This document shows, piece after piece, positions 18,428 through 34,833 of a stretch of 64,000 bases of DNA. Source of the stretch: Planotetraspora silvatica (lineage in GTDB: Bacteria; Actinomycetota; Actinomycetes; Streptosporangiales; Streptosporangiaceae); contig NZ_BOOQ01000002.1 of NCBI RefSeq assembly GCF_016863315.1, forward strand, positions 310,001 to 374,000. The letters are read 5' to 3'. The notes under the pieces are model-generated. The model saw only the letters and a list, made by a program, of their open reading frames with translations. It was not told the origin of the DNA and searched no databases. Numbering within the stretch: the stretch's first letter is position 1; each line of letters opens with the position of its first letter. The position numbers and the translations under genes were made by a program.

Positions 18428-19243
18428 TCAAGCGCTGGCGGCGGCCTGCCAACGGGCCTTGGTGTGGGTGAGGCGGCAGGAGTCGCCGGCCCGGCCGAGG
18501 TGCCGGACCAGGAACTCGTCGTCGACCCCGAACCAGCGGATGGTGCGGTGATCGCCCGGGTTGGCGTGTAACGTCTTCTCCTTCGACGCGAAGGCATCGA
18601 ACAACGCGAGAGCGGATTGGCGGTCGACGTGCTCGTCGTCCCACGGGAGCAGGAACTGGACCGGGACGGTGATTCGCCTCGCCGCCTCGAGCAGGGCCTC
18701 CCGCACGACAAACCCGCCGCCGAAGATCGCGGCGGTGATCCTGGGTTCGATCGCCGTCAGCGGTATCTCGATCCCGGTACCCAACGTGATGCCACCGCCG
18801 TAGCCGATCGGCGCCTCGGTGCCGATCTCCGGCAGTTGCTGGAGGGCGTCCAGGGTCGCCTGCCATTCCGGCACGGCACGCTCCGCCAGTGCGGTGCCGT
18901 ACCGGACAGTGATCGACTCGACGCGCTCGGTCTCGCCCGCCGCCATCGCCTGCCGGAGGTCGGCGCGGGCCTGCTCGTCCTCCACCGTGCGCGGGCGGTC
19001 GCCGTGTCCGGGCGCGTCGATGGCGGCCACGGTGAAACCGTGGGTGGTCACCGCGTCGTGGGCGCGGGCCATGAGCGCCGGCGTCTTCTTGTGCAGGCCG
19101 CCGCCGTGACTCATCAGCACCAGCGGGGCGTGATCGGAACCGGATACGGGCGACCAGAGCACGCCGGGGACTTCGCCCACCATGAAGTCACGTTCGAGGA
19201 CACCGTTCGACGATGTCTCCGTGGTGAAACGCACAGAATGCAT
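18428..19243 (-). CDS. alpha/beta hydrolase-fold protein (dienelactone hydrolase-like) with atypical nucleophile
   Basis: 271 residues with the fold's features: SHGGGLHKKTP oxyanion loop (about 45-55), AAIDAPGHGDRP, a late strand ending LLPWDDEHVDRQ with the acid residue, and NPGDHRTI with the His. The nucleophile elbow, where relatives have GxSxG, reads GITLG at residues 151-155, so Thr153 takes the Ser place. It may be a weak or non-hydrolytic member. It lies upstream of the regulator/pump operon on the same strand, 93 bases before the regulator start, and its own 5' region carries a short leader ORF. Confidence 0.8.
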   Translation of the reverse strand: MHSVRFTTETSSNGVLERDFMVGEVPGVLWSPVSGSDHAPLVLMSHGGGLHKKTPALMARAHDAVTTHGFTVAAIDAPGHGDRPRTVEDEQARADLRQAMAAGETERVESITVRYGTALAERAVPEWQATLDALQQLPEIGTEAPIGYGGGITLGTGIEIPLTAIEPRITAAIFGGGFVVREALLEAARRITVPVQFLLPWDDEHVDRQSALALFDAFASKEKTLHANPGDHRTIRWFGVDDEFLVRHLGRAGDSCRLTHTKARWQAAASA

Positions 19244-19295
19244 AGGTTTGTTGCCTTTCGAGAGTGCCTTGTTGTTGCGGCGCTCCCGGCGACAC

Positions 19296-19355
19296 CTACG
19301 TCAATCGCCCGACCGTAACGAAGCGAGGGAGCACCCATGTGCGTACAGCGTTCAT
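19296..19355 (-). CDS. short leader ORF (19 codons) before the hydrolase gene
   Basis: ATG at 19355 has an excellent ribosome site (GAGGAGG, 8 bases upstream) and encodes MNAVRTWVLPRFVTVGRLT before a TAG stop. It ends 52 bases before the hydrolase start, which itself has only a poor ribosome site. It could be a regulatory leader peptide, or the surviving start of a lost gene. Confidence 0.45.
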   Translation of the reverse strand: MNAVRTWVLPRFVTVGRLT

Positions 19356-19383
19356 GGGTCTCACCTCCTCGGGCGGTGTCACG

Positions 19384-19409
19384 GTTCGGGGAACGCTATC
19401 AACCCGAAC
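19384..19409. promoter_or_regulatory. inverted repeat upstream of the leader ORF
   Basis: GTTCGGG (19384-19390) and CCCGAAC (19403-19409) are separated by 12 bases. It lies just upstream of the leader ORF's ribosome site, where a repressor or the promoter would be expected. Confidence 0.35.
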
Positions 19410-19445
19410 GCGGCCCCGCCTAACCGTTTTTCTCCCGACCGACGT

Positions 19446-19496
19446 GGCACGACCGATGGCTTTTCGCACGCGCTACTCCCCTGACGGCATCAGGTG
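19446..19496 (-). pseudogene. second integrase tail remnant
   Basis: On the minus strand the frame reads HLMPSGE, stop, RVRKAIGRA, which is the extreme C-terminus of the same kind of tyrosine recombinase as the remnant at 15955-16275. Over 48 bases the two tails agree at roughly three quarters of positions and lie in the same orientation. Upstream of His the similarity ends. The remaining bases to 19575 show no gene. Confidence 0.65.
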
Positions 19497-19575
19497 CGCG
19501 CCCCTGTTGTCGCGATGCGACGGGGCGTCCGATCCGTTCAAGACGGCCGTCCCCTGATCAGCCCATGCTTGGGGG

Positions 19576-20019
19576 ATGGAACAACGGATCCACTTCATCA
19601 CCTTGTCGACGCCCGACCTCGACGCCGCCCGCGCCTTCTACTGCGAAGGGCTGGGCTGGACGGCGCTGCTGGACGTTCCTGGCGAGATCGTCTTCTTCCA
19701 GGTGGGCCCCGGCATGGTCCTCGGCCTCTTCGACAGGGCGCAGTTCGTCGCCGACATGCGGGGAACGACGGCTGACGGCGAACTCGGAGGTCTCACCCTC
19801 TCGCACAACGTGCCGACCCCCGCCGACGTCGACGCCACCGTACGTCGCGCGGTCGAGGCGGGCGGCACGCTCGTCAAGAGTCCTCAGATCGCGGCTTTCG
19901 GGGGCTATCACGGCCATGTCGCCGATCCGAACGGTGTGATCTGGGAGATCTGCCACAACCCCGGCTGGCGGGTCGACGAGAGCGGCCAGGTGCACCTCGG
20001 GCCGGTCGAGGAGGGGTAG
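19576..20019 (+). CDS. VOC-family (glyoxalase/dioxygenase fold) protein
   Basis: 147 residues forming two beta-alpha-beta-beta-beta modules. The first starts IHFITLSTPDLDAARAFYCE, and the second has DVDATVRRAVEAGGTLVKSP and GYHGHVADPNGVIWEI, where His and the final Glu are typical metal ligands. Such proteins act as isomerases, dioxygenases or antibiotic-binding resistance proteins; the substrate is not evident. It lies between the integrase tail and the lanthipeptide cluster, so a role in self-protection is possible but unsupported. The ATG at 19576 gives the full family length. Confidence 0.85.
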   Translation: MEQRIHFITLSTPDLDAARAFYCEGLGWTALLDVPGEIVFFQVGPGMVLGLFDRAQFVADMRGTTADGELGGLTLSHNVPTPADVDATVRRAVEAGGTLVKSPQIAAFGGYHGHVADPNGVIWEICHNPGWRVDESGQVHLGPVEEG

Positions 20020-20228
20020 ACACATCGGCCCCCGGCGAGGTGGAGACGGCCGGCTCACCGCTGCTCGACCGGCGTCGCACGCCGCCCGCGATGCCGTACA
20101 TGACGTTCTGTGCGCGCAACTGGACAGAACTCGCGCAACGGTAGCCGTACGTGGCGGTACAGGGGCTTGCCGGTGACTAAGTAGTTCAACGGATGTTGAC
20201 GGCCAGAGGCCGATTCATGCTGATCTCG

Positions 20229-20297: not shown

Positions 20298-23200
20298 ATG
20301 CCCCCGGCTGGTTCTGTCGACGCGCAGTCACCCGCTTCCGCCGCGCCAACGCTCGGCACGACGGCCGGGCTCCCGCCGCACTGGTGGGCGGCGGGGCTCT
20401 CACTCGCGGAGCGGCTCCGGCTGCCGGGATACCCTGTGCAACCGGCCGGAGAGGAACGCCTGGCTAGGGCACAGCGCCGGCTGGAGCGGTGGAGGGACTC
20501 TCACGGTCTCGGGAAGGACGGGCATTTCGCACGGCTCCTGGCCGAACGCGACCTCGACACCGACCGACTCCTGGCGCTACTCGCAGAGGACCCGGAGGAT
20601 CTGGCCACGCGGGCGGCGGCAGCGACCGGCCGCCCCGCCTGGGCGGGGATCGTCGAGGCCGTGCTCGAGGCGATGCCCGCGGAGCCGGACGGCCATCGTC
20701 ACCATCACGCGCCACAGCCCGAGGGTTGGGAAGGGCTGGCCGGCTTCGTAATGATCATCTCGCCGTTCGTGCGGTTCGCCGTCAAACGGTTCGACTCCGC
20801 CGTGCGCGAGGACGCGCTGGACCACCTGGGTGACGTAGCCGGGCTCGGTCATCAAATGGCCGAAGTACTGGCGGAACGGCTGGCGACGCTGGCCTCCCGC
20901 ACGCTGGTTCTCGAGCTCAACGTGCATCGCGTCACCGGACGGCTGCACGGTGACACGCCTGAGGAGCGTTTCTGGTCGTTCGTGCAGCATTTCTCCAGCA
21001 GGGACGCACTGGCCGAGCTCATGTCCGAGTACGTGGTCCTCGCACGGCTGCTGGCCCAGGCCTGCGACCAGGCGATCGAGACCCACCACGAACTGCTGGC
21101 ACGGCTGGCCGGTGACCGGGACGAGATCATGGCATCGATCTTCCACGGCGAGGATCCCGGCGCGCTCGTGGAGATTCAGATGGGCGGCGGAGTCGGCGAC
21201 GCCCACCAGGGCGGCCGGTCGGTCGCCCTTCTCCGCTTCGCCGGCGGAGCCCGACTCGTGTACAAGCCCAGGCCGCTGTCGGTGCACCGGCACGTCAACG
21301 ACGCCATCGGCTGGCTCGACGAACGTCTGCCCGGCTACGACCTGCGATCTCTCAACGTCCTGGACCGCCGGCGGTACGGGTGGGTGGAGTTCGTCGACTA
21401 CGCCTCCTGCGCGGACGACGACGAGACCCGGTGGTTCTATCGCCGCCAGGGCGCGCTGCTGGCGCTTCTGTACGCGCTGGACGGGGCCGACTTCCACTAC
21501 GAGAACCTCATCGCCGCCGGCGACCAGCCGGTCCTGGTGGATCTCGAGGCGGTCTTTCACCCGGAGGTCCGCCGGCCGTCCCGCCTGGGCTGGATGAACG
21601 ACGACCCGGCTGCCTTCGTTCTGGGGAAGTCGGTCTCCCGTATAGGGCTGCTGCCGGCCATCGTGTGGAACGAGGACGGCGACGTCCTGGACATGGGCGG
21701 CATCGGAGGCGACGCCGGTCAGACGATGCCGTTCAAGGTCCCCGGCTGGTCGGGCTCCGGGACCGACGAGATGCGCCTGACGCGTGAGAACGCCGCCTTC
21801 CCCGGAAGCCGGAACCGCCCCAGTGTCGGCGGGCAGGTGGCCGACCCCACGCATTTCATCGATGACCTCATGACGGGCTTCCGGGCCGGATACCAGGCCA
21901 TCGCCGCTCATCGTGACGACCTACTCGAGCACGGCGGCCTGCTCGGGCGCTTCGCCGACGACGAGATCCGCGTGGTGATGCGGGCGACGCGGCTCTACGG
22001 CAGCGTCCTCATGGAGTCCACTCATCCGGACGTGCTGCGCGACGCCCTCGACCGCGACCGGATCTTCGACTTCCTGTGGGCGCTCGCCGCCCTCGACCCG
22101 GTCCGCCGCAGCCTGGTGCCGATGGAGCTCGAGGAGTTGTGGGCCGGTGACATCCCTCTGTTCACGACTCGTCCGGCGTCACGAGACCTGTGGAGCGGCC
22201 GCGGCACGCGGGCCCGCGACCTGCTGGACCGCGACAGCCTGTCCCGCTCGACCGGCAAGATCCGCGGGATGGGCCCGCAGGACCTCACCCAGCAGGAGTG
22301 GATCATTCAGGCGTCGATGGCCACCCGTCCGGACCGGGCGGCGATCATCGGCGCCCCGTCATCGGCCCGCCACAGCACTCCCCCGTCTCCACGACTCGAC
22401 CCCGAACGGGTCGTCGCCGCCGTACGGCGCATCGCCGACCAGCTGGCCGAGCAGGCACTTGGAGACGGCGAACGCGTCAGCTGGCTGGGTGTCGACCAGG
22501 CGCAGGCGTCCCAGTCCCGGTGGGAGGTCAACCCGCTGGGGACCGACCTGTACAACGGCATCCCCGGCGTCGCGGTGTTCCTCGTCCAGGCCGCGGCCGT
22601 CACCGGCGACGACCGGTACGCGGACCTGGCGCGCCGCGCCATGACGCCGCTTCCGCAGATCGTGGATTCACTCGTGGACCCGGCGCCGGGCTCTCTCACG
22701 CCCACGTGCGGGGCCTTTTTCGGGCACAGCGGCCTGGCGTACTCGTTGACGCATCTGTCCGGGGCGCTCGGAGATCCCGCGCTTCGGGACATGATCGAGC
22801 CGTTGGTGAACGCGCTGGCCGCTTCCATCCCGGCAGACGAGACGCTCGACGTCGTCGGCGGCGCTGCCGGCGCCCTCGCGGCGCTGCTGGCCGTACATGA
22901 GTCGACCGGCCTGCCTGTCGCTCTGCGGCTGGCCGGCGCGTGCGGCGACCGGCTGGTCGAGACGGCCGGGCCGCAGGAGCAGGGCGTCGCCTGGCCGGGC
23001 ACGGCGCGAGGCGGGCCGCCTCTCAGCGGCTTCTCGCATGGGACGGCAGGCATCGGCTGGGCGCTGGCACGGCTCGCCGCGGTCGCCGGCGACTCCGCCG
23101 CGCAGGCGCGCTATGCCGCCACCGCGCATGCCGCCTTCGCCTACGAACGCGGCCAGTACGACTCCCGTATCGGCAACTGGCCGGATCATCGCAGCCTTCC

Positions 23201-23651
23201 CGGCAGGCCGACCAGGGACGACGGCCTGCCCGATCACATGCAGGCGTGGTGTCACGGCGCACCGGGCATCGGCCTGGCCCGGGCGGACGTGCTCCGGCGC
23301 GGAGCCGCCGGAGCCGAGGCCCTGAACGGTGATCTCGACCTCGCGCTGGCGTCGTTCCTGGCCGGCCCGGTGGCCGACAACGGGCACAGCCTCTGCCACG
23401 GCGAGCTCGGCAACCTCGAGCTGCTCACCACGGCGATCGACGCCGGCCGCACACACCTGACGGAGGCACGCGACCGCCGGTTGGGCGTGGTACTGGACCA
23501 GCTCGACGCGGGCCCACGCTGCGGCACGCCTGGAGGGGTGCCCACCCCGAGCCTGATGTGCGGCCTGGCGGGCATCGGGCACGGCCTCCTGCGCCACACC
23601 TTCCCCGACCGGGTGCCGTCGCTGCTCCTGCTCCAGCCTCCGATCGATTGA
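20298..23651 (+). CDS. lanM: class II lanthipeptide synthetase (dehydratase-cyclase)
   Basis: Single enzyme that phosphorylates and dehydrates Ser/Thr of a precursor peptide and then adds Cys to the dehydro residues to form (methyl)lanthionine rings. The N-terminal dehydratase (DUF4135) spans about residues 150-680, with RLVYKPRPLSVHRHVNDAIG and GADFHYENLIAAGDQPVLVD as kinase-like motifs. The C-terminal LanC domain runs from about 740, with HGTAGIGWAL (His914), WCHGAPGIG (Cys985/His986) and LCHGELGN (Cys1033/His1034), which provide the zinc ligands and acid/base. At 1117 residues it is full length. The ATG has a GAGGAATC site. It works on the LanA encoded 2.3 kb downstream. Confidence 0.96.
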   Translation: MPPAGSVDAQSPASAAPTLGTTAGLPPHWWAAGLSLAERLRLPGYPVQPAGEERLARAQRRLERWRDSHGLGKDGHFARLLAERDLDTDRLLALLAEDPEDLATRAAAATGRPAWAGIVEAVLEAMPAEPDGHRHHHAPQPEGWEGLAGFVMIISPFVRFAVKRFDSAVREDALDHLGDVAGLGHQMAEVLAERLATLASRTLVLELNVHRVTGRLHGDTPEERFWSFVQHFSSRDALAELMSEYVVLARLLAQACDQAIETHHELLARLAGDRDEIMASIFHGEDPGALVEIQMGGGVGDAHQGGRSVALLRFAGGARLVYKPRPLSVHRHVNDAIGWLDERLPGYDLRSLNVLDRRRYGWVEFVDYASCADDDETRWFYRRQGALLALLYALDGADFHYENLIAAGDQPVLVDLEAVFHPEVRRPSRLGWMNDDPAAFVLGKSVSRIGLLPAIVWNEDGDVLDMGGIGGDAGQTMPFKVPGWSGSGTDEMRLTRENAAFPGSRNRPSVGGQVADPTHFIDDLMTGFRAGYQAIAAHRDDLLEHGGLLGRFADDEIRVVMRATRLYGSVLMESTHPDVLRDALDRDRIFDFLWALAALDPVRRSLVPMELEELWAGDIPLFTTRPASRDLWSGRGTRARDLLDRDSLSRSTGKIRGMGPQDLTQQEWIIQASMATRPDRAAIIGAPSSARHSTPPSPRLDPERVVAAVRRIADQLAEQALGDGERVSWLGVDQAQASQSRWEVNPLGTDLYNGIPGVAVFLVQAAAVTGDDRYADLARRAMTPLPQIVDSLVDPAPGSLTPTCGAFFGHSGLAYSLTHLSGALGDPALRDMIEPLVNALAASIPADETLDVVGGAAGALAALLAVHESTGLPVALRLAGACGDRLVETAGPQEQGVAWPGTARGGPPLSGFSHGTAGIGWALARLAAVAGDSAAQARYAATAHAAFAYERGQYDSRIGNWPDHRSLPGRPTRDDGLPDHMQAWCHGAPGIGLARADVLRRGAAGAEALNGDLDLALASFLAGPVADNGHSLCHGELGNLELLTTAIDAGRTHLTEARDRRLGVVLDQLDAGPRCGTPGGVPTPSLMCGLAGIGHGLLRHTFPDRVPSLLLLQPPID

Positions 23652-23692
23652 CCACTCGATCGACCACTCGATCGACCACTCGATCGACCACG
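23645..23692 (+). repeat. four 12-bp tandem repeats at the lanM stop codon
   Basis: Units of CGATCGACCACT: the first has CGATTGACCACT and contains the lanM TGA stop, the next two are identical, the fourth ends CACG. They fill half of the lanM-lanT gap. Confidence 0.9.
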
Positions 23693-23742
23693 AGTCGCAT
23701 CGCCCGTAGCCGCAGTTCCGCATGTCCCTCCGAGGAGAAGCC

Positions 23743-25923
23743 GTGCGTCATCGTGTTCCCGTCCGTCTGCAGATGACCCGTACCGAATGCGGTGCGGCGT
23801 GCCTCGCGATGGTGCTCAGCCACCATGGCCGGGACACGCTCGTCTCCGAGTGCCGTGACCTGATCCAGCCGGGGCGCGACGGCGTTTCGCCGTCCAGTCT
23901 CATCGCGGCGGCCGAGCGTCAAGGGATGCGGGCCTCCGCCAGACGCGTTGAAGACCTGCCGGAGACCGGGCCGGACCGGCCTCTCATCGCCTACTTGGCC
24001 AAGCATCACTACGTCGTGGTGGAGCGGAACGGTCGCGGCCGGGTGCGCCTCGCGGATCCGGCGAAGGGCCGGCGCACGCTCTCCGCCGAGAAGTTCGCCG
24101 CCGAATACGGCGGGGTGGTGATCGAGATGGAGCCGGGTCAGGGGTTCGTCCAGCGCCGCATTCCCCTGCGGGAGAGCATGCTCGTCCGCTACATGCGCGA
24201 GTTCGTCGGCGTGCCCGGCGGTCGCCGGCTGCTGCTCTGGATCCTGCTGCTCGCGGCCGGGCTGCAGGTGCTCGGGCTCTCTCTGCCGCTGGCCACCAAG
24301 GTCGTCGTCGACTACCTGGTTCCCGCCGGGCGCCTCGACCTGCTGGGGATGCTCGGGGCGGGAATCGCGGGGATCGTCATCCTCCAGGGGGCTGTGAACG
24401 TCGTCCGGAGCAGGACGCTGCTCAAGCTCCGCGCCCTCGCGGACCGGCGGCTGATCGGCCGGTTCGTCACCCACCTGCTGCGGCTGCCGCTCGGCTTCTT
24501 CCTCCAGCGCACCCGGGGAGACCTGCTGATGCGGCTCAGCAGCGTGTCGTCCGGCCGCGAGGCCCTCACCCAGCAACTGCTGACGGTGGCCCTGGACGGC
24601 GTGCTGCTGATCGGCTACGTCACGGCCCTGACCTTCATCAGCCCTTGGTACACGCTGGTCGTCGCCGTGCTCGCCGTGCTGCAGGTCAGTTTGATGCTCA
24701 GCTCGTACAACAGGATGCGGGTGCTCTCGCAGCAGGAACTGACCACCCGCGCCGAGGAGCAGAGCTATCTGATCGAGGCCCTCCAGGCGATGCTGCCCGT
24801 GAAGGCGAACGGCGTGGAGGAGCAGGCACGGCTCCGCTGGAGCACGCTGTTCGACACCTACCAGACGGCCATGGTGCGCCGGGGCCGGGCCAGTTCATGG
24901 TACGAGGGCGGCCAGGCGGCACTGTCCGTGCTCGCCCCGCTGGCGCTGTTGTGGTGCGGTGTGTGGCTGGTGCTCGGCGGCCGGATGACCCTGGGCTCCA
25001 TGCTCGCGGCCAACACCCTGGCCATGTCGGTGTTGTCACCGCTGATGGCGTTCGTGGGCGTCATCCAGCTCCTCTCCATGCTGCGCGGGCAGATCGAGCG
25101 TGTCTATGACGTCCTCGACTCGGCCCCCGAGACGAGCGGCGACCAGGAGCTCCCTGGCCGCCGGCCGGTTTCCGTGTGGATGCGTGACGTCACCTTCCGG
25201 TACGCGGCCGAGGCGCCTCCGGTGATCAAGAACGTCTCCTTCACTGTGGCCGCCGGAGCCAAGCTGGGCGTCGTCGGGCGAACCGGCTCGGGAAAGAGCA
25301 CACTGGCGCTCCTCGTGCTCGGCCTCCTGCGGGCCGAGGCCGGCGTGGTGGCCCACGACGGCGTCTCCATCGACGATCTCGACATCGGCGATCTGCGCCG
25401 GGGCTGTGGCGCGGTCCTTCAGGAGCTGTCCCTGTTCAACGGCCCGATCCGCGACAACATCACGATGGGCAGCCCGGACGCCACGGACGCCGCCGTCATC
25501 GAGGCGGCGACCATCGCGGGGCTGCATGACGACGTGCTGCGCCTTCCGATGGGCTACGAGACCAACGTGGGCGAGGGCGGGGCCTCCCTGTCGGCGGGTC
25601 AGCGTCAGCGTGTGGCCCTCGCCCGCGCCCTGGTCCACAGGCCCCGGCTGCTCATCCTCGACGAGGCCACGAGTCATCTCGACCCGGAGACCGAGCGCCG
25701 GGTCGACGAAGCTCTGTCGGCCCTGCGGGTGACCCGGATCGTCGTCTCGCATCGGCTCAGCGCCATCCGGAACGCCGACGAGATCGTGGCCATGCACGAC
25801 GGCCGCATCGCCGATCGCGGGACGCACGAGGAACTCGTGATCCGGCCCGGCGTCTACCGCGAGCTTTTCGGCGGCACGGCGGCCTTCGAACGGGCCGGGG
25901 TGGCGCACCCGGCCCTCCCCTAG
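23743..25923 (+). CDS. lanT: bifunctional lanthipeptide ABC transporter with C39 leader peptidase
   Basis: Cuts the leader peptide after a double glycine and exports the mature peptide. Order: N-terminal C39 peptidase (about 1-135) with MTRTECGAACLAM holding the catalytic Cys16, HHYVVVE the His and LADPAKG the Asp; six transmembrane helices (about 155-430); C-terminal ATPase with Walker A GRTGSGKST, signature LSAGQRQRVALARAL, Walker B LLILDEATSHLD and H-loop RIVVSHRL. GTG 23743 is chosen because GAGGAG lies 5 bases upstream; an in-frame ATG at 23722 has no site. It stands between lanM and lanA, whose leader ends in Gly-Gly as this peptidase requires. Confidence 0.95.
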   Translation: MRHRVPVRLQMTRTECGAACLAMVLSHHGRDTLVSECRDLIQPGRDGVSPSSLIAAAERQGMRASARRVEDLPETGPDRPLIAYLAKHHYVVVERNGRGRVRLADPAKGRRTLSAEKFAAEYGGVVIEMEPGQGFVQRRIPLRESMLVRYMREFVGVPGGRRLLLWILLLAAGLQVLGLSLPLATKVVVDYLVPAGRLDLLGMLGAGIAGIVILQGAVNVVRSRTLLKLRALADRRLIGRFVTHLLRLPLGFFLQRTRGDLLMRLSSVSSGREALTQQLLTVALDGVLLIGYVTALTFISPWYTLVVAVLAVLQVSLMLSSYNRMRVLSQQELTTRAEEQSYLIEALQAMLPVKANGVEEQARLRWSTLFDTYQTAMVRRGRASSWYEGGQAALSVLAPLALLWCGVWLVLGGRMTLGSMLAANTLAMSVLSPLMAFVGVIQLLSMLRGQIERVYDVLDSAPETSGDQELPGRRPVSVWMRDVTFRYAAEAPPVIKNVSFTVAAGAKLGVVGRTGSGKSTLALLVLGLLRAEAGVVAHDGVSIDDLDIGDLRRGCGAVLQELSLFNGPIRDNITMGSPDATDAAVIEAATIAGLHDDVLRLPMGYETNVGEGGASLSAGQRQRVALARALVHRPRLLILDEATSHLDPETERRVDEALSALRVTRIVVSHRLSAIRNADEIVAMHDGRIADRGTHEELVIRPGVYRELFGGTAAFERAGVAHPALP

Positions 25924-25981
25924 CCGCGCGGCGCCTGTCGCGCGAACCCGGCACACCCCCACCTCAGAAAGGAATTCCGTC

Positions 25982-26230
25982 ATGTCGATGGAAGAAGCCA
26001 ACAACCTGGTCCGGTCCTGGAAGGACCCCGACTTCCGAGACGGCGCCGCGGCACACCCCGCCGGTGACATCGACTTCGGCATCGTCGGAGGCGAGAGCGA
26101 CACGAGCGGTCCCTGCATCGGCGGGCTGACCCTGCTGGCGAGCTGCTTGCCGATCTGCGACGGCACGCTCTGGAACGGCACCTGCGCGCTGTCCCAGTGC
26201 AAGCCTCACATCGAACCCATCTGGGCCTGA
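25982..26230 (+). CDS. lanA: class II lanthipeptide precursor, mersacidin-type leader
   Basis: 82 residues. The leader (1-37) carries the mersacidin-family marks LVRSWKDPDFR and HPAG and ends IVGG, the double-glycine site for the LanT peptidase. The predicted core, residues 38-82, starts ESDTSGPCIGG and ends KPHIEPIWA; it has Cys at 45, 55, 59, 68 and 73 and Ser/Thr at 39, 41, 42, 50, 54, 62, 67 and 71, so up to five thioether rings are possible. An AAGGA site lies 8 bases before the ATG. The gene is last in the lanM-lanT-lanA order. I do not recognise the core as any known lantibiotic. Confidence 0.92.
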   Translation: MSMEEANNLVRSWKDPDFRDGAAAHPAGDIDFGIVGGESDTSGPCIGGLTLLASCLPICDGTLWNGTCALSQCKPHIEPIWA

Positions 26231-26251
26231 CCTGTCGAGCACGTGAAACCC

Positions 26252-26278
26252 GCGGGTGGCGGCCCGGCCGTCACCCGC
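26252..26278. terminator. terminator hairpin between lanA and the LuxR-type regulator
   Basis: GCGGGTGGCGG pairs with CCGTCACCCGC through an 11-bp stem (one G-T pair) and a 5-base loop. It lies between two converging genes and can serve both. Confidence 0.75.
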
Positions 26279-26293
26279 TTGGGTGCCAGGGGT

Positions 26294-29134
26294 TCACCCC
26301 GAGGACTCGGCCAGGCGGTGGGCCAGCGCCGTGCGCGTGCTCACCCCGAGTTTCTGGAACACCTTGGCCAGGTGCGTCTCCACCGTGCGGGGGCTGAGGA
26401 ACAGACGCTCGGCGATCTGCCGGTTGGTCAGCCCCTGGGTGGCGAGTTCGGCAATCTCCCGCTCTCTGCCCGACAGGCCCGCGGGCTGCGACCCGCGTTT
26501 CCCCCGGGCCCCCGCGCGGCGCTGCTCACGCCCGACCTGCCGGGCCAGCCATGACGCCCCGCAATCGGTGAACAGCTCCCTGGCCGCCCCGAGGTGACGC
26601 TGGGCGGCACGGCTGTCGCCCAGCCGCGAGGTGAGCTCCGCCAGGAGCATCCATGCCAGTCCCTCGTCGATCGGCAGTGACTCGGCCGCGAAGCAGTTCA
26701 CCGCGTTCCGCGCGGCGGCCGCCCCGGCTGCGTGGTCACCGCGGGCCTGCGCGATGACCGCCCGGGCGCGGGCCACGGAGCCGAGCTGCGCCCGCGGCGC
26801 GCCTCTCTCCGCTACGGCCGCGGCGCGCGCGTACCATTCCCAGCCGGTCTTCAGGTCGCCGCAGGCGACCTCGGCCTGTGATCTCAGCGCGTACACCGAC
26901 GGCGCGTGCGGCCCGAGATCGCCGGTGCCGGATCCGGAGCCGGAACCGGGCCGTCCCGCGAGCAGGGCCCGGCATCCGTCCGGGTCGCCCGCGAGGAAAC
27001 GCGCCTCCGCCATGGCCTGGTCGGCGATGTCGCGCCACCACACCGAGCGCAGGGTGTGGCCGTCCCGCGCGTCCGCGATCGCCGGCAGTGCCGCGACAGG
27101 GCCTTCCCGCCACAACAGGGGAAGCGACTTGACCGCCTGAACGAACGTGCGCAGCTCCGCACTGTCCAGATGCCGGGCGATCTCCTCACCGTCCTCGGCG
27201 TCGGCGAGGGCCTGGGACGCCATGCCCAGCCGCGCGTGGACGACCGAACGCACCACGTAGAGCTGGGGCACGACATCGTCGTGGCCGTACCGGCGGGCGG
27301 TGCGGAGCCCGCGTTCCACATGACGCAGCGCGTCGCGGTGTTCGTCGACCAGGAACTCGCCCCAGGCGAGCACCGCCATGATGTCCAGGTCGTCGCACAG
27401 CTCCAGGTCGTTCAGTGCGTCGGCGGCCCGCCGTGCCTCCTCCAGCCGGGTCAGCCCTCGGCCGAATCGGCACCGGTAGAGCTCGGCGAGCGCCGTCATC
27501 GCGGTCGCGACGGCCGAGAGGCCGGGGCGGCTGCCGGGGCCGGCGCACCGCAACGCCTCCGCGGCGTTCTCGGCTCCCGCCCTCCAGTCGCCGCCGAGCA
27601 TGTCGACGGCCGCGAGCTCGACCAGCAGCCCGACCCGCGCACGCGGCCCGGCGCCGGCCGTCCTGTCCAGCTCCGCGCTGAGCAGGGCTCTGGCCTCGGG
27701 CAACCGCCCGAGGGCCCGCTCGGCCGCTCCGAGGCATTCCAGGGCGGCGTAACGGCTGGGACCGTCACCCGCGACCAGTTCGTGGAGGATGGCCCTGCCC
27801 TCGTTGAACCGGCCGGACGCGTTGAGCGCCTTGGCCAGGGCCAGCCGCAGGTGGCACCTGCGCTCCGCGTTCCCCGGGTCGTCGGGCAACGCCCACAGGG
27901 CTGCCCGCAGCCACCGGGCCGCGGCCGCGGGGGCGACGCTCAGCGACTCCAGGGCCGCCGTCGCGAGGAGCCGCGAACCGTCGAGGTCGCCGGGGAATAT
28001 CCCGTGGCGGAGGTGCTCCGCGCGCAGGGACAGCGGCGCGTTCTGCCCGGCCAGATGACCGGCCGCGCGGTGATGGGCCGCCGTCCGCCAGGAGTGCCCG
28101 GTCATGCGGTACGCGGCGGCGCGGACGAGGGGATGGCGGAACAGGAGCCGTCCGTCCGAGGCTCGCAGGACGTCCCGCGCGACGAGCTCGTCCAGTGCCC
28201 CCCTGACCTCGTCCTCCGTCATCTCGGCGACCACGGCGACCAGCGCGGAATCGAGAGGCTCGCCGACCACGGACGCGGCCTGGACGACCGTGGCGAGTGG
28301 CGCCCTGAGCGTGGCCAGCTCTCTGGCGATCAGGGCGCCGAGACCGACTCGGGCGCCGTCCGCGACGGCCGCCACGTCACTCAGCTGGTCGACCGCGCGC
28401 GGAGGCAACTGGCCGAGGATCTCCAGGTAGAGCGGGTTGCCCCGGCCGATCTCGTACAGCCTGCGCCCAGCGGCGGGCGACGTGCCCGGCATCAGCGATC
28501 TCGCGTCCTCGAGTGACAGCGGGCCCAGCGACATGGGGAACACGGGTGCGACGGACGCGGCGAGCGAGCGGTCCAGCATCGTGGGGAGGCGGCCGGTGCG
28601 GACGCTGATCACGACGACGGTCGAGCGGGCCGGATGCCGCACCAGGTAGTCGATCAGCTCCGCGGACGCCGCGTCGGCCCAGTGGACGTCGTCCAGCAGC
28701 AGAAGGAGCCCGGAACGCGCCGCGGCCGCCTCCACCAGAGCGCGGGACCGGCGGTGCGTCCGATGCCGCTCCACCCCCGTCACCGCGGCGGCCGGCGTGC
28801 GCGCGGCCAGCCGCGCTCGCAGCCGGTCGGCGTGGGGGGCCAGTTCCGGGCGCATCTCCGCGTCGTCCAGCGCGTCGACGAGCAGGGCCCACGGTATGCC
28901 GCTCGCCATCTCCGTGGCCCTCCCCGACAGGGCGGGTACGCCGTGATGCTCGGCCGCGGCGGCGAAGGCGGACAACAACCGGGACTTCCCGATGCCCGGC
29001 TCTCCGCTCACCAGCACGAAGGCCGCGGCGGGGCCGCCCGCGAGCAGGGTCCGCAGCCGCGCCACTTCGGCCTCACGGCCTGGCGGCGCCCCGACGCTCG
29101 TCCCTGAGGCTCGGTCGTCGGCCCGCCGGATCAT
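26294..29134 (-). CDS. large ATP-binding LuxR-family (LAL) transcriptional regulator
   Basis: 946 residues. The N-terminal AAA-type ATPase has Walker A GEPGIGKSRLL (about 47-57) and Walker B LLLLLDDVHWAD (about 145-156); the middle is a long helical TPR-like array; the C-terminus is a LuxR/GerE helix-turn-helix, SGREREIAELATQGLTNRQI then RTVETHLAKVFQKLGV. LAL proteins usually activate antibiotic or catabolic gene clusters. The start at ATG 29134 is backed by GGAG 8 bases upstream. It converges on lanA and is the best candidate for the cluster-linked activator, though its position alone does not prove this. A TetR gene lies 63 bases upstream on the same strand. Confidence 0.9.
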   Translation of the reverse strand: MIRRADDRASGTSVGAPPGREAEVARLRTLLAGGPAAAFVLVSGEPGIGKSRLLSAFAAAAEHHGVPALSGRATEMASGIPWALLVDALDDAEMRPELAPHADRLRARLAARTPAAAVTGVERHRTHRRSRALVEAAAARSGLLLLLDDVHWADAASAELIDYLVRHPARSTVVVISVRTGRLPTMLDRSLAASVAPVFPMSLGPLSLEDARSLMPGTSPAAGRRLYEIGRGNPLYLEILGQLPPRAVDQLSDVAAVADGARVGLGALIARELATLRAPLATVVQAASVVGEPLDSALVAVVAEMTEDEVRGALDELVARDVLRASDGRLLFRHPLVRAAAYRMTGHSWRTAAHHRAAGHLAGQNAPLSLRAEHLRHGIFPGDLDGSRLLATAALESLSVAPAAAARWLRAALWALPDDPGNAERRCHLRLALAKALNASGRFNEGRAILHELVAGDGPSRYAALECLGAAERALGRLPEARALLSAELDRTAGAGPRARVGLLVELAAVDMLGGDWRAGAENAAEALRCAGPGSRPGLSAVATAMTALAELYRCRFGRGLTRLEEARRAADALNDLELCDDLDIMAVLAWGEFLVDEHRDALRHVERGLRTARRYGHDDVVPQLYVVRSVVHARLGMASQALADAEDGEEIARHLDSAELRTFVQAVKSLPLLWREGPVAALPAIADARDGHTLRSVWWRDIADQAMAEARFLAGDPDGCRALLAGRPGSGSGSGTGDLGPHAPSVYALRSQAEVACGDLKTGWEWYARAAAVAERGAPRAQLGSVARARAVIAQARGDHAAGAAAARNAVNCFAAESLPIDEGLAWMLLAELTSRLGDSRAAQRHLGAARELFTDCGASWLARQVGREQRRAGARGKRGSQPAGLSGREREIAELATQGLTNRQIAERLFLSPRTVETHLAKVFQKLGVSTRTALAHRLAESSG

Positions 29135-29197
29135 CGCTGGGTCTCCATGCGTGGTGGGTGGCGAAGATGCTCCCTCGCCACGTGGCACCGCGGCGGG

Positions 29198-29851
29198 TCA
29201 CCCCCCGGCTTCGGCGGCTCGCATACGGCCGACGGGCGGCGGGTCGTCCTGGATGAGCGCGGACTCCGGAGCGGGGAGCCCGTACATGTCATGCACGCGG
29301 CGGCGCACGCGTTCCAGGGGGTACTGGTCCTGGTAGACGGCGGCTTTGAAGATCACGCCTTCCAGGACGCTGCGGAACAGCACTTCCTCCAGGGCCGGGT
29401 CGTCCGCACCCCGGGCGGCGAAGATTCCGCGCAGGCCGTCCTCCAAGTCGGCGACCTGGTCTTCCTTCCTGGCCTCCGCGCGGGCGAAGAGCGGATGCGT
29501 GGAAGGGTGGATCACCAGACTGAGCGTCATCCGCTGTATGGGGAGGGTCTGGGCGACGGTGAGCAGGACACCGTCGATGATCGCCGCCAGACGCTCGTCG
29601 GGCGTGCCCGTCACATCCAGGATGGCGGTCACACTGTCGATGTAACGGTCGAGGAGATTGTCCACGAGATTCTGCTTGCCTGGGAAGTAGTAGGTGATCA
29701 GGCCACGAGAGACCCCGGCGCGGGCGGTGATGTCCGAGATCGTGGCGTTGTGGTAGCCCTTCTCGGTGAAGACCTCCAGCGCGGCGGCGAGGATCCTTTC
29801 CCGCGATTGCTCGCGCATCTCTTCGTTGGCCTGTGCCGATCGTGGCGACAC
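29198..29851 (-). CDS. TetR-family transcriptional regulator
   Basis: N-terminal TetR helix-turn-helix: RERILAAALEVFTEKGYHNA then ISDITARAGVSRGLITYYF (about residues 17-55), followed by a ligand-binding helical domain ending around MYGLPAPE. GTG 29851 is preferred (GAGG 9 bases upstream) over GTG 29866; both are in frame. It could form a transcript with the LAL gene, since only 63 bases separate them. Its ligand and targets are unknown; the nearest candidates are the lanthipeptide cluster and itself. Confidence 0.85.
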   Translation of the reverse strand: MSPRSAQANEEMREQSRERILAAALEVFTEKGYHNATISDITARAGVSRGLITYYFPGKQNLVDNLLDRYIDSVTAILDVTGTPDERLAAIIDGVLLTVAQTLPIQRMTLSLVIHPSTHPLFARAEARKEDQVADLEDGLRGIFAARGADDPALEEVLFRSVLEGVIFKAAVYQDQYPLERVRRRVHDMYGLPAPESALIQDDPPPVGRMRAAEAGG

Positions 29852-30001
29852 CCTTGTCCACCTCACTGGCTCGCGTCATGGCTCATCTGAGGCGGTGGCC
29901 GCCCCGAAGCCATTCTCGCGCGAGCCGCCCTGTCGGTGGCTCGGTGGCTTGTGATCGCGCATGTACCTTCGTTCGCCGCGCTGACGGAAAGTCAGAGGGT
30001 G

Positions 30002-30141: not shown

Positions 30142-31635
30142 CTACTGCTTGGTGGAGCCTGTGACGCGGGACTTGAGGCCGGTGACGCGCCGGAACATGT
30201 CCCACCAGAAGGGGGCTCCGAAGAGGACGGCCACCAGGGTGAGGAGGAATCCGGGCCAGTGGCCCGGCGACGAGAGACGGTCCCACCAGCCGCCGCCGTG
30301 CCACTCCCACTGCGGACTGGCGTCGCCGCTGCTCATGGTCACGCTCACCGGAGCGTTCGTGAAGATCTTGACGAAGGCCGGGGTGCTCAGCACGTCGGTC
30401 ACGCACGTGTAGGTGTCCTGGCCCGGCGCGCACTGGTCCTGGAAGGGCTTGAGGGCGTCCTCCCCCGACTGGGCGAAGGCCGTCACCGCGCTCCGGTAGG
30501 CGTTGTCGTTGAGCAGCGTCTTGCCGTACTCGAGGGCGTCCATGCTGAACACGAGCGTCACGATCAGCGAGAGCAGCGCGACCACCCAGCGGACGTAACG
30601 CTTGTAGAGCATGGAGAGCCGCTGCATCTCGCCGTCGAACCACTCCTCGACGCCGCGGCGGAAGGCCTCCATGTCGTCGTTCGCCTTGTCCCACACGGCC
30701 TTGAGCGGCCGGTAGAGGGGGCTCTTGAGCTGGTCGAGGTCGCGCATCAGCGGCTCGACGCCGCCGTGCTCGGTGGCGATCTCCATGAGCGCAACGGCGA
30801 AGCGCGCCGGCGGGATGTCGGCGATGCTGGTCTTGCCACGCCTAGAGTGGTCGATCTCCTGAAGCCGCTCGTGGAGCAACTCGGCCATCGACTTGCCCTC
30901 GCCGGGTGGCACCACCTCGGTGGGCGGCTCGGCGGCCGACTCGGAGATCGCCTCGGCGGTCGTGGCGACGCCCTCCTGCCCCGGCTCCGCCGCCGACGCC
31001 CGCTCCTCGTCGTCGGCCTGGTCGGCCCCGTGCGCGGGATCCGCGGGGTCGATCTCGGCGGTGACGCCGCCGTCGCCGGCGCCGTCCGCCGGCACGGCCT
31101 GCGCGGGGCCGGCCGCAGGCGGGGCGGCACCCGCCGGTGCGCCCGCGGGAACGGGATCCGGCTGGACGGCCTGACCGGCGTTCGCGGCGGGGACGGCCTG
31201 TTCGGCGGCGACCGAGTCAGGCGCGGCGGCGAGCGGCGGGCTCACGGAAGGCGCGGGCAGCGGGCTGAAGGCGGGCCTCGGGTCCGCGCCGAAGGGCAGC
31301 TTGGCGAACACGCCGAGCACCGTCGCGGGCAGCCGGGAACGTCCCTCGCTCGACGGCGGCAGCAGGTCGATCAGCGGGGCCCGCAGCCTGCGCCCGAGGC
31401 CCTTCAGCATGTCGAGCAGCCGCTCCAGCATCCGGATGAAGAGCGAGGCCTGCTTCCCGGTCTCGGCACCGTCGAGCGTGTCGCGAAGGTAGGCCCATAA
31501 GAACTTGCTGCGAATTCCGAGCAGCCTGACGATGCCCTCGTTGAGTCCGCTGACCAGTAGCGACAACAACAGGAAGGCGAGAATGAGACCGATTGCCAGG
31601 TCTACGTAATACGAGATCAATGAGATCACCCGCAC
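30142..31635 (-). CDS. large membrane protein of unknown function
   Basis: 497 residues. One N-terminal helix (LAIGLILAFLLLSLLVSGLN, about 13-33) followed by EGIVRLLGIRSKFL resembles the opening of a widespread but uncharacterised family of bacterial membrane proteins. Residues ~115-240 form a long Ala/Pro/Asp/Glu-rich linker with little structure; then a helical domain (IADIPPARFAVALMEIATEH) and two more transmembrane segments around 350-370 and 455-475, with an exported loop containing two Cys (QCAPGQDTYTC) between them. GTG at 31635, or 31629, starts it. No partner gene is obvious; glnE lies 186 bases upstream with nothing seen between. Confidence 0.7.
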   Translation of the reverse strand: MRVISLISYYVDLAIGLILAFLLLSLLVSGLNEGIVRLLGIRSKFLWAYLRDTLDGAETGKQASLFIRMLERLLDMLKGLGRRLRAPLIDLLPPSSEGRSRLPATVLGVFAKLPFGADPRPAFSPLPAPSVSPPLAAAPDSVAAEQAVPAANAGQAVQPDPVPAGAPAGAAPPAAGPAQAVPADGAGDGGVTAEIDPADPAHGADQADDEERASAAEPGQEGVATTAEAISESAAEPPTEVVPPGEGKSMAELLHERLQEIDHSRRGKTSIADIPPARFAVALMEIATEHGGVEPLMRDLDQLKSPLYRPLKAVWDKANDDMEAFRRGVEEWFDGEMQRLSMLYKRYVRWVVALLSLIVTLVFSMDALEYGKTLLNDNAYRSAVTAFAQSGEDALKPFQDQCAPGQDTYTCVTDVLSTPAFVKIFTNAPVSVTMSSGDASPQWEWHGGGWWDRLSSPGHWPGFLLTLVAVLFGAPFWWDMFRRVTGLKSRVTGSTKQ

Positions 31636-31821: not shown

Positions 31822-34800
31822 TCAGTCCTCGTACAGCAGGCGTTCGGCGACGACCCTCGCTCTGCGGGTGACGCGGCGATAGTCGTCGATGAAGTCCTCG
31901 GATCCGTCGGGCGGGTATCCGAGCGCCCGGGAGATCAGGGCACGCTCCTTGACGAGCCCGGGAATGCTGTCGGCCGCTCGCCCGCGCACCAGCATGATGG
32001 CGTCGCGGACGCGTGAGGCGAATCGCCACGCCTCGCCGAGCACGGCCTCGTCCGCCTGCTCCAGCAGGCCCTCCGCGACCGCCGCCCGCAGCGCGCCGAC
32101 GGTCCGCGTCGTCCGCAGGGCCGGTACGGCGCCCGCGTGCCTGAGCTGGATGAGCTGGGCCACCCACTCGACATCGGTGAGCCCGCCCCTGCCGAGCTTG
32201 GTGTGGAGGGTCGGGTCGGCACCCCTGGGCAGCCGCTCGGCCTCCATCCGGGCCTTGAGCTTGCGCATCTCCCTGACCGCCTCCGGGGAGATGCCCTCCG
32301 GCGAGTACCGCAGCGGATCGATGAGATCCATGAACTCGGCCCCGAGGTCGGCGTCCCCGGCGCAGAACCTGGCCCGCATGAGGGCCTGCGCCTCCCAATG
32401 GGACGACCAGCGCTCGTAGTAGGCCCGGTAGGAGGCGATCGTGCGGACCAGCGGCCCCTGCCGTCCCTCCGGCCGGAGGCCGGCGTCGATCTGGAGCGGC
32501 GGATCGGGGGCGGGCTGGGCGAGCAGCCTGCGCATCTCCTCGGCCACCGTCTGGGCCGCGATCGTGGCGTCGCGTTCGGAGACCCCCGGTCGCGGCGCGT
32601 GGACGAACATCACGTCGGCGTCGCTGGCGTACGAGCTCTCCATCCCGCCCAGCCGGCCCATCGCGATCACCGAGAGCCGGGTGGGGAAGTCCTCCCGCCT
32701 CCCCCGGCAGACCTTGTTGATGGTCGCGTCCAGGGCGGCCTGAACGGTCACGTCGTTCAGGGACGACAGCGCCCGGCCGACCTCCTCGATGTCGATCAGC
32801 CCGAACAGGTCGGCGCACGCCGTACGCAACAGTTCCTTGCGGCGCAGCGCGCGGATGGCGGTGACGGCGGTCTCGGCCTCGGCGCCGTGGCGGTTGACGG
32901 CGGCCGCCGCCTCCCCCGCCAGCGTCGACACGGGCCGTACGGCGAGCTCGCTGGTCTCGCCGAGCATCCCGACCGCTTCGGGGGCGTGGAGCAGCAGCCC
33001 GGTGACGTAGCGGCTGGTCCCGAGGACCCGGGCGAGCCGCTCCGCCACGGCGGTCTCGTCCCGGAGCAGCCGCAGGTACCAGGGCGTGCTCCCGAGCTTG
33101 TCGCTGACCTGCCGGAAGCCGAGGAGGCCGGCGTCCGGGTCGGGGGCGTCGGCGAACCAGCCGAGCATGACCGGCAACAACGTGCGCTGGATGGCCGCCC
33201 GCCGGGAGACGCCACTGGTCAGCCCGGCGATGTGGCGCAGCGCGCCGTCCGGATCGGCGTAGCCGAGGGCTTCGAGCCGAGCCTGCGCGGCGGCGGTCGA
33301 CAGGCGAGCCTCGGATTCGGGCAGGCGGGCGACGGCCTGCAGGAGCGGCCGGTAGAACAACTTCTCGTGCAGCCGCCGCACCTCGAGCGCGTGCCGCTTC
33401 CAGGTCGTGGTGAACTCTCCGACCGGGTCGGTGGTCATGCCGAGGCCCCGGCCGATCCTGCGGAGGTCCGCGGTGTCGGAGGGCACCACGTGTGTACGGC
33501 GCAGCCGATAGAGCTGGATCATGTGCTCGACCTGGCGGAGGAAGGTGTACGCCTCGGCCAGGGCCTTGGCGTCGTCGCGTCCGACGAATCCGCCTCTGGA
33601 CAGGGCGGCCAGGGCGGAGAGCGTCGCGCGGCGCCGGAGCAGGGGCTCAGAACGGCCGTGCACGAGCTGGAGCAGCTGCACGGCGAACTCGATGTCCCGC
33701 AGGCCTCCCGGCCCGAGCTTGATCTGCCGCTCCGCCTCGCTCGCCCGGACGTGGGCCTCGACGCGGCGGCGCATCGCCTGGACGTCCTCGACGAAGTGGG
33801 GACGTGCCGCGGCCTGCCACACCATCTCGTTGACGGCCGCGACGTACTCCTGCCCGAGCTCCAGATCACCCGCGATCGGCCTGGCCTTCAGCAGAGCCTG
33901 GAACTCCCAGGTCTTGGCCCATCGGCGGTAGTACACGAGGTGGCTGTCGAGGGTCCGCACGAGGGGACCCAGCTTCCCCTCGGGACGCAGACCCGCGTCC
34001 ACCTCCCAGAGGGATCCCTCCGGCGTGCTGGTCGAGCAGGCCTTCATCATCGCCTGGGCCAGCCGGGTGGCGGTCTGCAGCGCCTTGGTCTCGTCGACGC
34101 CCTCCCTGGGCTCCGCCACGAAGACGACGTCCACGTCGGAGATGTAGTTCAGCTCACGTGCGCCGCACTTGCCCATCCCGATCACGGCCAGCCGTACGTC
34201 GCCGGACTCGGGAGTCTCCGCCCTCGCGATGGCGAGGGCCGCGTCGAGGGCCGCGCCCGCCAGGTCGGCCAGCGCGGCGGCGGTCTCCGCGAGCGTCGCG
34301 TCCCCCGCCACGTCCCGTCCGGCGATGTGCAGGAGCCTGCTCCGGTAGGCCACGCGCAGCGCGTCCAGGGCGGCTCCCCTCTCACCGGGTCCGGCCCCGG
34401 GCGCCGACGGAACCGGGCCGTCGGCGATCGGTTCCGCGGCCTCCGGGTCGGCGCCGACGGCGAGCAGCAGCTCCTCCCGGAGCTCCTGGTCGCCAGGCCG
34501 TCCCTGCGCCTGGATGAACGGCAGGCAGCCGGGATGCCGGACGACATGGTCGCCGAGGGCGGCGCTCAGCCCGAACACGCCGGACAGTCTGCGGCGCAGC
34601 ACAGGGTCGTCCCTGAACGCGCCGAGCACGCTCGGGTCGCGCTCGACGAGACGCGACAGTGAACTCAGCGCGAGATCGGGGTCGGCCGCCGCCGCGAGGT
34701 CGTCGAGCAGGTCGAAGTCGCCGACGGCCTCGGGGCCGAGCGCGTCGAGCAGCCGCTCGGCCCTCGCTCCGTCGGCGAAGCCGAGGGCGGCCAGGCGGCC

Positions 34801-34833
34801 GGCTGTGGTCTGGATCCGGGGCGCCGTGTTCAC
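31822..34833 (-). CDS. glnE: glutamine synthetase adenylyltransferase / adenylyl-removing enzyme
   Basis: Adds or removes AMP on the tyrosine of GlnA to switch it off or on with nitrogen supply. 1003 residues hold two nucleotidyltransferase domains in tandem: the N-terminal one (de-adenylylase) with GMGKCGARELNYISDVDVV, and the C-terminal one (adenylylase) with AMGRLGGMESSYASDADVMF, each with the paired Asp that bind metal. The start is GTG 34833 (VNTAPRIQTTAGRLAALGF): GAGGAAGGA lies just upstream, and the frame extending to 34950 looks non-coding. Its substrate GlnA is encoded 16 kb away in the same window. Confidence 0.95.
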   Translation of the reverse strand: MNTAPRIQTTAGRLAALGFADGARAERLLDALGPEAVGDFDLLDDLAAAADPDLALSSLSRLVERDPSVLGAFRDDPVLRRRLSGVFGLSAALGDHVVRHPGCLPFIQAQGRPGDQELREELLLAVGADPEAAEPIADGPVPSAPGAGPGERGAALDALRVAYRSRLLHIAGRDVAGDATLAETAAALADLAGAALDAALAIARAETPESGDVRLAVIGMGKCGARELNYISDVDVVFVAEPREGVDETKALQTATRLAQAMMKACSTSTPEGSLWEVDAGLRPEGKLGPLVRTLDSHLVYYRRWAKTWEFQALLKARPIAGDLELGQEYVAAVNEMVWQAAARPHFVEDVQAMRRRVEAHVRASEAERQIKLGPGGLRDIEFAVQLLQLVHGRSEPLLRRRATLSALAALSRGGFVGRDDAKALAEAYTFLRQVEHMIQLYRLRRTHVVPSDTADLRRIGRGLGMTTDPVGEFTTTWKRHALEVRRLHEKLFYRPLLQAVARLPESEARLSTAAAQARLEALGYADPDGALRHIAGLTSGVSRRAAIQRTLLPVMLGWFADAPDPDAGLLGFRQVSDKLGSTPWYLRLLRDETAVAERLARVLGTSRYVTGLLLHAPEAVGMLGETSELAVRPVSTLAGEAAAAVNRHGAEAETAVTAIRALRRKELLRTACADLFGLIDIEEVGRALSSLNDVTVQAALDATINKVCRGRREDFPTRLSVIAMGRLGGMESSYASDADVMFVHAPRPGVSERDATIAAQTVAEEMRRLLAQPAPDPPLQIDAGLRPEGRQGPLVRTIASYRAYYERWSSHWEAQALMRARFCAGDADLGAEFMDLIDPLRYSPEGISPEAVREMRKLKARMEAERLPRGADPTLHTKLGRGGLTDVEWVAQLIQLRHAGAVPALRTTRTVGALRAAVAEGLLEQADEAVLGEAWRFASRVRDAIMLVRGRAADSIPGLVKERALISRALGYPPDGSEDFIDDYRRVTRRARVVAERLLYED

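Follow-up and report, generated by a model that had tools for sequence, protein, structure and literature searches.

The window analysed here, a stretch of 64,000 nucleotides from Planotetraspora silvatica, carries at positions 25982-26230 of the forward strand an 82-residue ORF, lanA, which is a genuine precursor gene for a class II lanthipeptide and the last gene of a lanM-lanT-lanA cassette. Comparison with related cassettes gives a slightly better than even chance, in our judgement, that its product is a single-component lanthipeptide derived from the beta-like member of a roseocin-type pair whose alpha partner genes are gone. The gene is ordinary in kind; it is noteworthy because it is solo though two of its four orthologues are paired, because the GCC end of the paired peptides is missing in all three solo genomes, and because its core changes fast. 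The cassettes bear on how two-component lantibiotic pairs arise or dissolve, and form a natural series in one actinomycete family: a beta-like peptide with three alpha-like ones, a beta-like with an alpha-like one, and a peptide alone. Within the single genus Planotetraspora, moreover, a paired and a solo cassette have the same neighbouring genes. The series makes partner loss directly testable by comparison of solo with paired peptides, and lends itself to the question of how a peptide weapon of two parts turns into one of a single part.

A class II lanthipeptide cassette

LanA, which was aligned to four orthologues, consists of a leader of 37 residues (MSMEEANNLVRSWKDPDFRDGAAAHPAGDIDFGIVGG; 25982-26092) and a core of 45 residues, E38-A82 (ESDTSGPCIGGLTLLASCLPICDGTLWNGTCALSQCKPHIEPIWA; 26093-26230 with the stop codon), both on the forward strand, as is a Shine-Dalgarno-like AGAAAGGA (25966-25973) 8 nt 5' of the ATG. 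The features named in an earlier, sequence-only reading of this DNA are all present: RSWKDP (residues 11-16), HPAG (25-28) and Gly36-Gly37 in the leader, and in the core five Cys, eight Ser/Thr, a CLPIC stretch (55-59) and the tail KPHIEPIWA (74-82). A lone ORF of this kind is little proof of a gene, because this GC-rich DNA is full of ORFs (103 of at least 40 residues in 14 kb). What places lanA beyond chance is that intact lanM and lanT genes lie directly upstream on the same strand, that orthologues occur in four other genomes, each beside orthologues of lanM and lanT, and that dN is lower than dS in the leader in all six pairs of the four orthologues.

LanM (20298-23651, forward strand; 1117 residues) is a type 2 lanthipeptide synthetase with a DUF4135 dehydratase and a LanC-like, CHG-type cyclase domain (TIGR03897, PF13575, PF05147), scoring 881.1 bits against TIGR03897, whose cut-off is 304. 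Its residues 148-1115 align with LicM2 (6st5), with WCHG and SLCHG matched, and it has the CHG motif of the roseocin-family LanM, RosM, at residues 1033-1035. It is the one LanM above cut-off in the whole genome; three further matches, considered as a possible second LanM, all fall below it. LanT (23722-25923, forward strand; 733 residues) combines a C39 peptidase, a transmembrane domain and an ABC ATPase (PF03412, PF00664, PF00005), and its Gln17, Cys23, His96 and Asp112, which we take to be catalytic, align with the C39 domain 6mpz, consistent with a role in leader cleavage and export. The proposed class II (LanM-type) assignment is thus borne out by a precursor with leader, double-glycine site and Ser/Thr- and Cys-rich core, next to a C39-type LanT and directly downstream of lanM and lanT.

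The epithet mersacidin-type, applied in the same reading, is weak for the leader and does not extend to the core. TIGR03898, the mersacidin/lichenicidin leader family, shows a weak likeness to leader residues 8-26 only, its 18.9 bits falling short of the cut-off at 23.5. The 45-residue core lacks the CTxTx[DE]C motif that is given for mersacidin-type lipid II binders in PMC10027976, CALSQC being found at residues 68-73. LanA matched no Pfam family and no library model at its cut-off, found nothing among the PHROGs and nothing better than E 0.2 among PDB chains, and was its own sole match in a search of its 8.66 Mb genome at E up to 10.

The cassette is flanked by a glutamine synthetase gene (14465-15907) and, on the other side, by an ORF (31822-34950) that we take from its sequence to be glnE. 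Convergent with lanA is the gene for a LAL/LuxR-type regulator with AAA_16 and GerE domains (26294-29188, reverse strand), and the gap between the two holds a strong hairpin (26237-26295, forward strand; -39.6 kcal/mol, z -2.3, equalled in 5 of 200 shuffles), the last two bases of which overlap the luxR ORF. The hairpin is a possible two-way terminator, one without a U-tract and missed by a terminator scan; neither a U-tailed terminator nor a sigma-70-like promoter was found in the scan. By position the LuxR protein is a possible cluster regulator, its gene adjoining the lan genes also in Planotetraspora thailandica and Nonomuraea jabiensis. In two Streptosporangium genomes the LuxR match (74 and 72%) lies together with a TetR match away from the lan genes, so that a LuxR dedicated to the cassette is disfavoured, and LuxR and TetR may be long-standing neighbours that do not belong to the cassette. 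The TetR gene of the window (29198-29866, reverse strand) is a flanking gene that is kept in a near relative, G203, where the lan genes are absent. Between it and glnE lies a gene for a 497-residue, Pro/Ala-rich protein (30142-31635, reverse strand) that is 70% identical in P. thailandica and is without significant Pfam or NCBIfam match. A scan of nine window proteins near lanA brought up no recognizable immunity gene.

Paired and solo cassettes in the family

Among 341 genomes of the same family, that of the window included, 21 have LanA matches at E 0.01 or better. Orthologues (E 4.9e-27 to 2.6e-11), so labelled where LanM is also closest, are found in four of the 340 others: P. thailandica (NZ_BOOR01000025.1), Streptosporangium subroseum (NZ_FZOD01000009.1), N. 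jabiensis (NZ_JACHMB010000001.1) and a second Streptosporangium genome (G306). All four have lanM-lanT upstream of lanA. Identity to the window in P. thailandica, S. subroseum and N. jabiensis, in this order, amounts to 62, 70 and 56% for LanM and to 57, 56 and 43% for LanA. A five-member LanM profile, which favours its own members, scored the five above 1900 bits and the next protein at 1152. Some LanM at 1e-100 is present in 66 of the 341 genomes.

The cassettes differ in what follows lanA. In P. thailandica three further precursor genes, alpha-like as shown below, lie 3' of lanA, between it and luxR, an interval of 63 bp in the window; the downstream genes are syntenic with those of the window (GlnE 87%, TetR 93%, LuxR 76%). 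N. jabiensis has one additional precursor adjacent to its orthologue and another beyond luxR. The latter (locus L034, 13022-13250), with the core TQEMPTLGTTFIICTLPGCNPTVFFGCNY, is unlike both the alpha- and the beta-like ones of that genome. In S. subroseum we saw no extra precursor, and no alpha-like gene was found beside lanA in the window or in either Streptosporangium genome.

On a separate LanM branch, G084, G168 and G080 (E 1.1e-10 to 1.0e-8) encode precursors that have the leader and the first core half in common with LanA and then end, without GCC; an example is EGQTTSFPCLVALSLLLRCFPG from G084. Their cores alone are similar to that of the window (p = 0.0005, 0.0005 and 0.0055). The shared half thus predates the supposed beta state. 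The rest of the 21 matches are weaker. When the core is compared with its relatives in this way, the earlier description of it as unrecognized stands in so far as no close characterized match came out of the searches made; it does have four orthologous cores, and three others share half of it.

Relationship to roseocin

Mersacidin and actagardine had served as yardsticks for the core. The nearest characterized system that we found is instead the two-component lantibiotic roseocin (RosA1-beta and RosA2-alpha, with RosM; Streptomyces roseosporus), because two of the orthologues adjoin roseocin-alpha-like precursors and end in a GCC motif. Roseocin is described by Chaudhary et al. (2023; PMC10027976) as antibacterial through the synergy of two peptides, with S/TxxxxTxGCC as alpha motif. 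We found a counterpart in genome G647, a weak match to the LanA profile, whose alpha core holds SGVLGTLGCC and SGWTVCGLAC, with Cys at 13 and 33, just as that paper gives them for roseocin alpha. From these sequences we take the G647 cluster to be roseocin itself or something very close to it; the beta core of the cluster is TTWACATVTLTVTVCSPTGTLCGSCSMGTRGCC.

All four precursors adjoining paired orthologues, three in P. thailandica and the adjacent one in N. jabiensis, carry [ST]xxxx[ST]xGCC 8-9 residues into the core. The orthologues themselves have GSCQIMSVGCC, 8 residues from the C-terminus, in P. thailandica and GTCRFSSIGCC, 0 residues from it, in N. jabiensis, as compared with GSCSMGTRGCC, likewise 0 residues from the C-terminus, in the roseocin-type beta of G647. 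Shuffled cores match G[ST]xxxx[ST]xGCC at 2.8e-4 (P. thailandica) and 8e-5 (N. jabiensis). Alpha and beta are told apart by motif position only, because this pattern also matches roseocin alpha and the N. jabiensis alpha-like peptide near their N-termini. The gene order of both paired cassettes, beta followed by alpha, is that of the roseocin-type cluster. The peptides of the window and of the two Streptosporangium genomes have a C-terminal part that is three residues shorter than in the paired orthologues and is without GCC, so the window core lacks the G[ST]xxxx[ST]xGCC end of roseocin beta. A KPHxEP tail is common to the window, P. thailandica and S. subroseum (Arg for Lys in the last), altered in G306 and absent from N. 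jabiensis.

Core-only alignments (2000 shuffles each; 18 tests, uncorrected) place the paired orthologues of P. thailandica and N. jabiensis with roseocin beta (p = 0.0095 and 0.0195) as against alpha (0.44 and 0.38), and their alpha-like peptides with roseocin alpha (0.0005 to 0.0375) as against beta (0.16 to 0.69). The corresponding values for the window, S. subroseum and G306 are 0.29, 0.19 and 0.53 against beta and, again uncorrected for 18 tests, 0.073, 0.009 and 0.017 against alpha. The window core alone has no significant beta likeness, and its link to beta therefore runs via the orthologues. A profile of all five orthologues matched roseocin beta with 95.9% probability over residues 8-58, which take in most of the leader and the start of the core. 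Walker et al. (2020; PMC7268733) list roseocin beta in their family II 2, in which by their account leaders are conserved and cores are not, and roseocin alpha in II 29.

Roseocin is likewise class II, with a CHG-type LanM and a peptidase-containing LanT (PMC10027976), and a WKDP...PAG-type leader is found in the window too; the C-terminal motif, the adjoining alpha-like precursors and the gene order extend the likeness through the two paired orthologues. Unlike roseocin, the window has one precursor and no alpha that we found, has lost the GCC and has an added Pro-containing tail. Its LanM is some 35% identical to the LanM beside the roseocin-type precursors, and its leader stays below the TIGR03898 cut-off that both G647 precursors pass. 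A literature search, in which supplementary tables were outside the text covered, gave by title nothing on-topic for Planotetraspora with lanthipeptide or lantibiotic, and nothing for Streptosporangium with lanthipeptide and LanM.

Evolution of the cassette

The LanM tree groups P. thailandica with the Streptosporangium pair (95/93), the LanT tree the window with P. thailandica (96/94). A single clade of the three solo genomes has p-AU values of 0.11 (LanM), 0.048 (LanT) and 0.24 (joined); the window with P. thailandica has 0.046 (LanM) and 0.42 (joined), and 0.016 in a 16-row LanM tree, and P. thailandica with the Streptosporangium pair has 0.022 for LanT. One shared loss of alpha, two losses, or a gain in P. 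thailandica are possible histories.

Descent of the window peptide from a beta-like half of a pair is suggested by an intact and adjacent lanM-lanT-lanA set with the sole LanM above cut-off, by the two paired orthologues that end in GCC as roseocin beta does and share its gene order, by the presence in the window, within otherwise kept synteny, of 63 bp at the place of the three P. thailandica alpha-like genes, and by a core that changes fast next to a constrained leader, LanM and LanT. This descent is made less secure by the weak leaning of the solo cores to roseocin alpha (uncorrected for 18 tests), by the disagreement of the LanM and LanT trees on the order of loss, and by the GCC-less cores of G084, G168 and G080 that share the first half.

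Several of these points agree with a different history, possible if doubtful, in which the ancestor was a one-peptide lanthipeptide, P. thailandica and N. jabiensis each acquired alpha-like genes on their own, and the GCC end arose by convergence. Three of the five cassettes are solo, the cores of these lean to roseocin alpha and do not resemble beta, three cassettes on a different LanM branch have the first half of the core but no GCC, the LanM beside roseocin-type precursors is only 35% identical, and the number of alpha-like genes varies from three in P. thailandica to one adjacent in N. jabiensis. Such a history would have to accommodate an outgroup cassette, that of N. jabiensis, with both a GCC-ending peptide and an alpha, a C-terminal motif improbable by chance in both paired genomes, and a gene order that agrees with the roseocin-type cluster.

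The core evolves fast while leader, LanM and LanT are constrained, as seen in one pair, S. subroseum and G306. These two are 96.1% identical in LanM, 95.6% in LanT and 97% in the leader, as against 63% in the core. Nonsynonymous to synonymous differences number 21/4 in the core, 1/4 in the leader, 45/44 in LanM and 34.5/35.5 in LanT (core versus the other three combined, 80.5/83.5; Fisher p 0.001), and NG86 dN/dS pairs are 0.285/0.134 (core), 0.012/0.179 (leader), 0.019/0.050 (LanM; ratio 0.38) and 0.022/0.062 (LanT; ratio 0.35). The support that this lends to the beta-derived reading is weakened because the contrast comes from a single pair picked after the sequences had been seen. Among the six pairs of the four orthologues, core dN exceeds dS in four.

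Search for an alpha partner

An alpha-profile search of the window, S. subroseum and G306 genomes, in which 150 of 186, 150 of 254 and 150 of 263 first-look candidates, respectively, were scored, returned only the lanA leader and weak matches. As controls, the P. thailandica and N. jabiensis alpha genes were found at 3.3e-31 or better, which follows from the construction of the profile, and an N. jabiensis precursor outside the profile was found at 8.1e-9. The weak matches in the window genome had E values of 0.22, 0.37, 0.67 and 3.7 among the 150 of 186 candidates scored. That at 0.37 was rejected, being antisense to a 538-residue ORF beside another ORF, presumably integrase-like. Also set aside was an alpha supposedly hidden in both G306 and S. 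subroseum (E 0.16 and 0.21), which is antisense to another gene, one that we take to be YajC-like. The window genome thus yielded, among the scored candidates and beyond these weak matches, no peptide with the [ST]xxxx[ST]xGCC motif near the core N-terminus that marks the roseocin-family alpha; that the count covers 150 of the 186 candidates weakens the case for absence.

That the peptide still works as a beta, with an alpha partner from a gene elsewhere or from strains nearby, is rather improbable. The halves of known two-component lantibiotics are reported in PMC13060208 to have little or no activity alone, and roseocin itself works by synergy of its two peptides (PMC10027976), as such a peptide would. 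Against this, the 150 of 186 candidates scored in the 8.66 Mb genome included no alpha other than weak matches, the best at E 0.22, and none of the three genomes in which no alpha-like gene was found retains the C-terminal motif.

Predicted product

On the preferred, beta-derived reading, LanM would bind the SWKDP...HPAG leader, dehydrate Ser/Thr of the core and close thioether rings, and LanT would cut after Gly36-Gly37, a site that is Gly-Ala in both Streptosporangium genomes, and export the product. Each of the five core Cys has a Ser/Thr upstream, so that the five rings envisaged at the outset are possible by count. The likeliest would be Thr41 or Ser42 to Cys45, Thr50 to Cys55, Ser54 to Cys59, Thr62 to Cys68, and Thr67 or Ser71 to Cys73, with the KPHIEPIWA tail remaining linear. 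T50, S54, C55, C59, C68 and C73 are invariant in the five aligned LanA sequences, residue 62 is Thr/Ser in all five and residue 67 in four (Ile in G306). Cys45 is kept in four of the five; N. jabiensis lacks both it and any core Ser/Thr before Thr50, a joint absence that supports a ring there. With five dehydrations the computed neutral monoisotopic mass is 4580.15 Da, as compared with 4670.20 Da before any water is lost.

The product is probably antibacterial, acting without an alpha partner; the finding of no recognized immunity gene among the nine proteins scanned weakens this. A fuller version, in which the beta-like peptide was rebuilt after alpha loss so as to bind the target and kill alone, the rebuilding consisting in removal of the GCC end, fast core change and a weak drift toward alpha-like sequence, we regard as unlikely.

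A signalling or developmental lanthipeptide is a poor prospect, on a par with the missing partner. It would agree with the regulator genes adjoining lanA, with the absence of CTxTx[DE]C and with the same want of a recognized immunity gene nearby, but a fast core behind a fixed leader is easier to explain by an arms race than by a conserved signal, and roseocin is antibacterial (PMC10027976).

In the near relative G203, another Planotetraspora, flanking DNA is 93-97% identical to the window and the TetR protein 99%, and the block from 20389 to 29175 is missing: at one contig end a match to 18485-20078 is followed by a 39-bp match to lanM 20350-20388, and on another contig the match begins at 29176. 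G203 has no LanM at 1e-100 and no close LuxR copy (36% at best). These positions fit a recent deletion of the whole lanM-luxR block, with the caveat that the contig break falls at the same place. That the window cassette is itself decaying, its alpha genes lost first and the remainder on the way out, is very unlikely despite this deletion with its leftover lanM piece and the presence of LanM at 1e-100 in only two of five Planotetraspora genomes, since lanM, lanT and lanA all have open frames, the Streptosporangium pair shows constraint on LanM and LanT, and all five sequences retain every Cys but Cys45, which is kept in four.

More distant relatives

Against 394 genomes drawn evenly from the class, a LanA profile brought up no new orthologue and reached E 0.001 in four, the window's own and three weak ones. 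A single-sequence LanA scan of genome contigs returned no relative; whole-genome searches did find relatives. A plasmid search for named relatives gave LanM genes (187 records) with identities all below 60%. At three Streptomyces places with a LanM about 40% identical, two of which adjoin NRPS genes, a motif scan showed no precursor of the window type. On Streptomyces plasmids (L114 6710-10207; L115 6716-10076), NRPS genes and a gene annotated as lantibiotic dehydratase adjoin a LanM of about 40% identity, and a small hypothetical single-Cys peptide follows.

TIGR03898 reached its cut-off with none of the eight precursors scanned from five cassettes (two more being outside the scan), as compared with both roseocin-type precursors of G647; there is thus a clade of class II precursors that this model misses at its cut-off. 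Five other Streptosporangiaceae LanM cassettes encode one to five short precursors each, mostly with TExxxSxGCC or a close variant and few residues after the two Cys, and motif scans of these showed no beta-type partner. A set of three related LanM-LanT cassettes encodes several precursors with only one or two Cys in the core; one of them has the first half of the window core and then ends.
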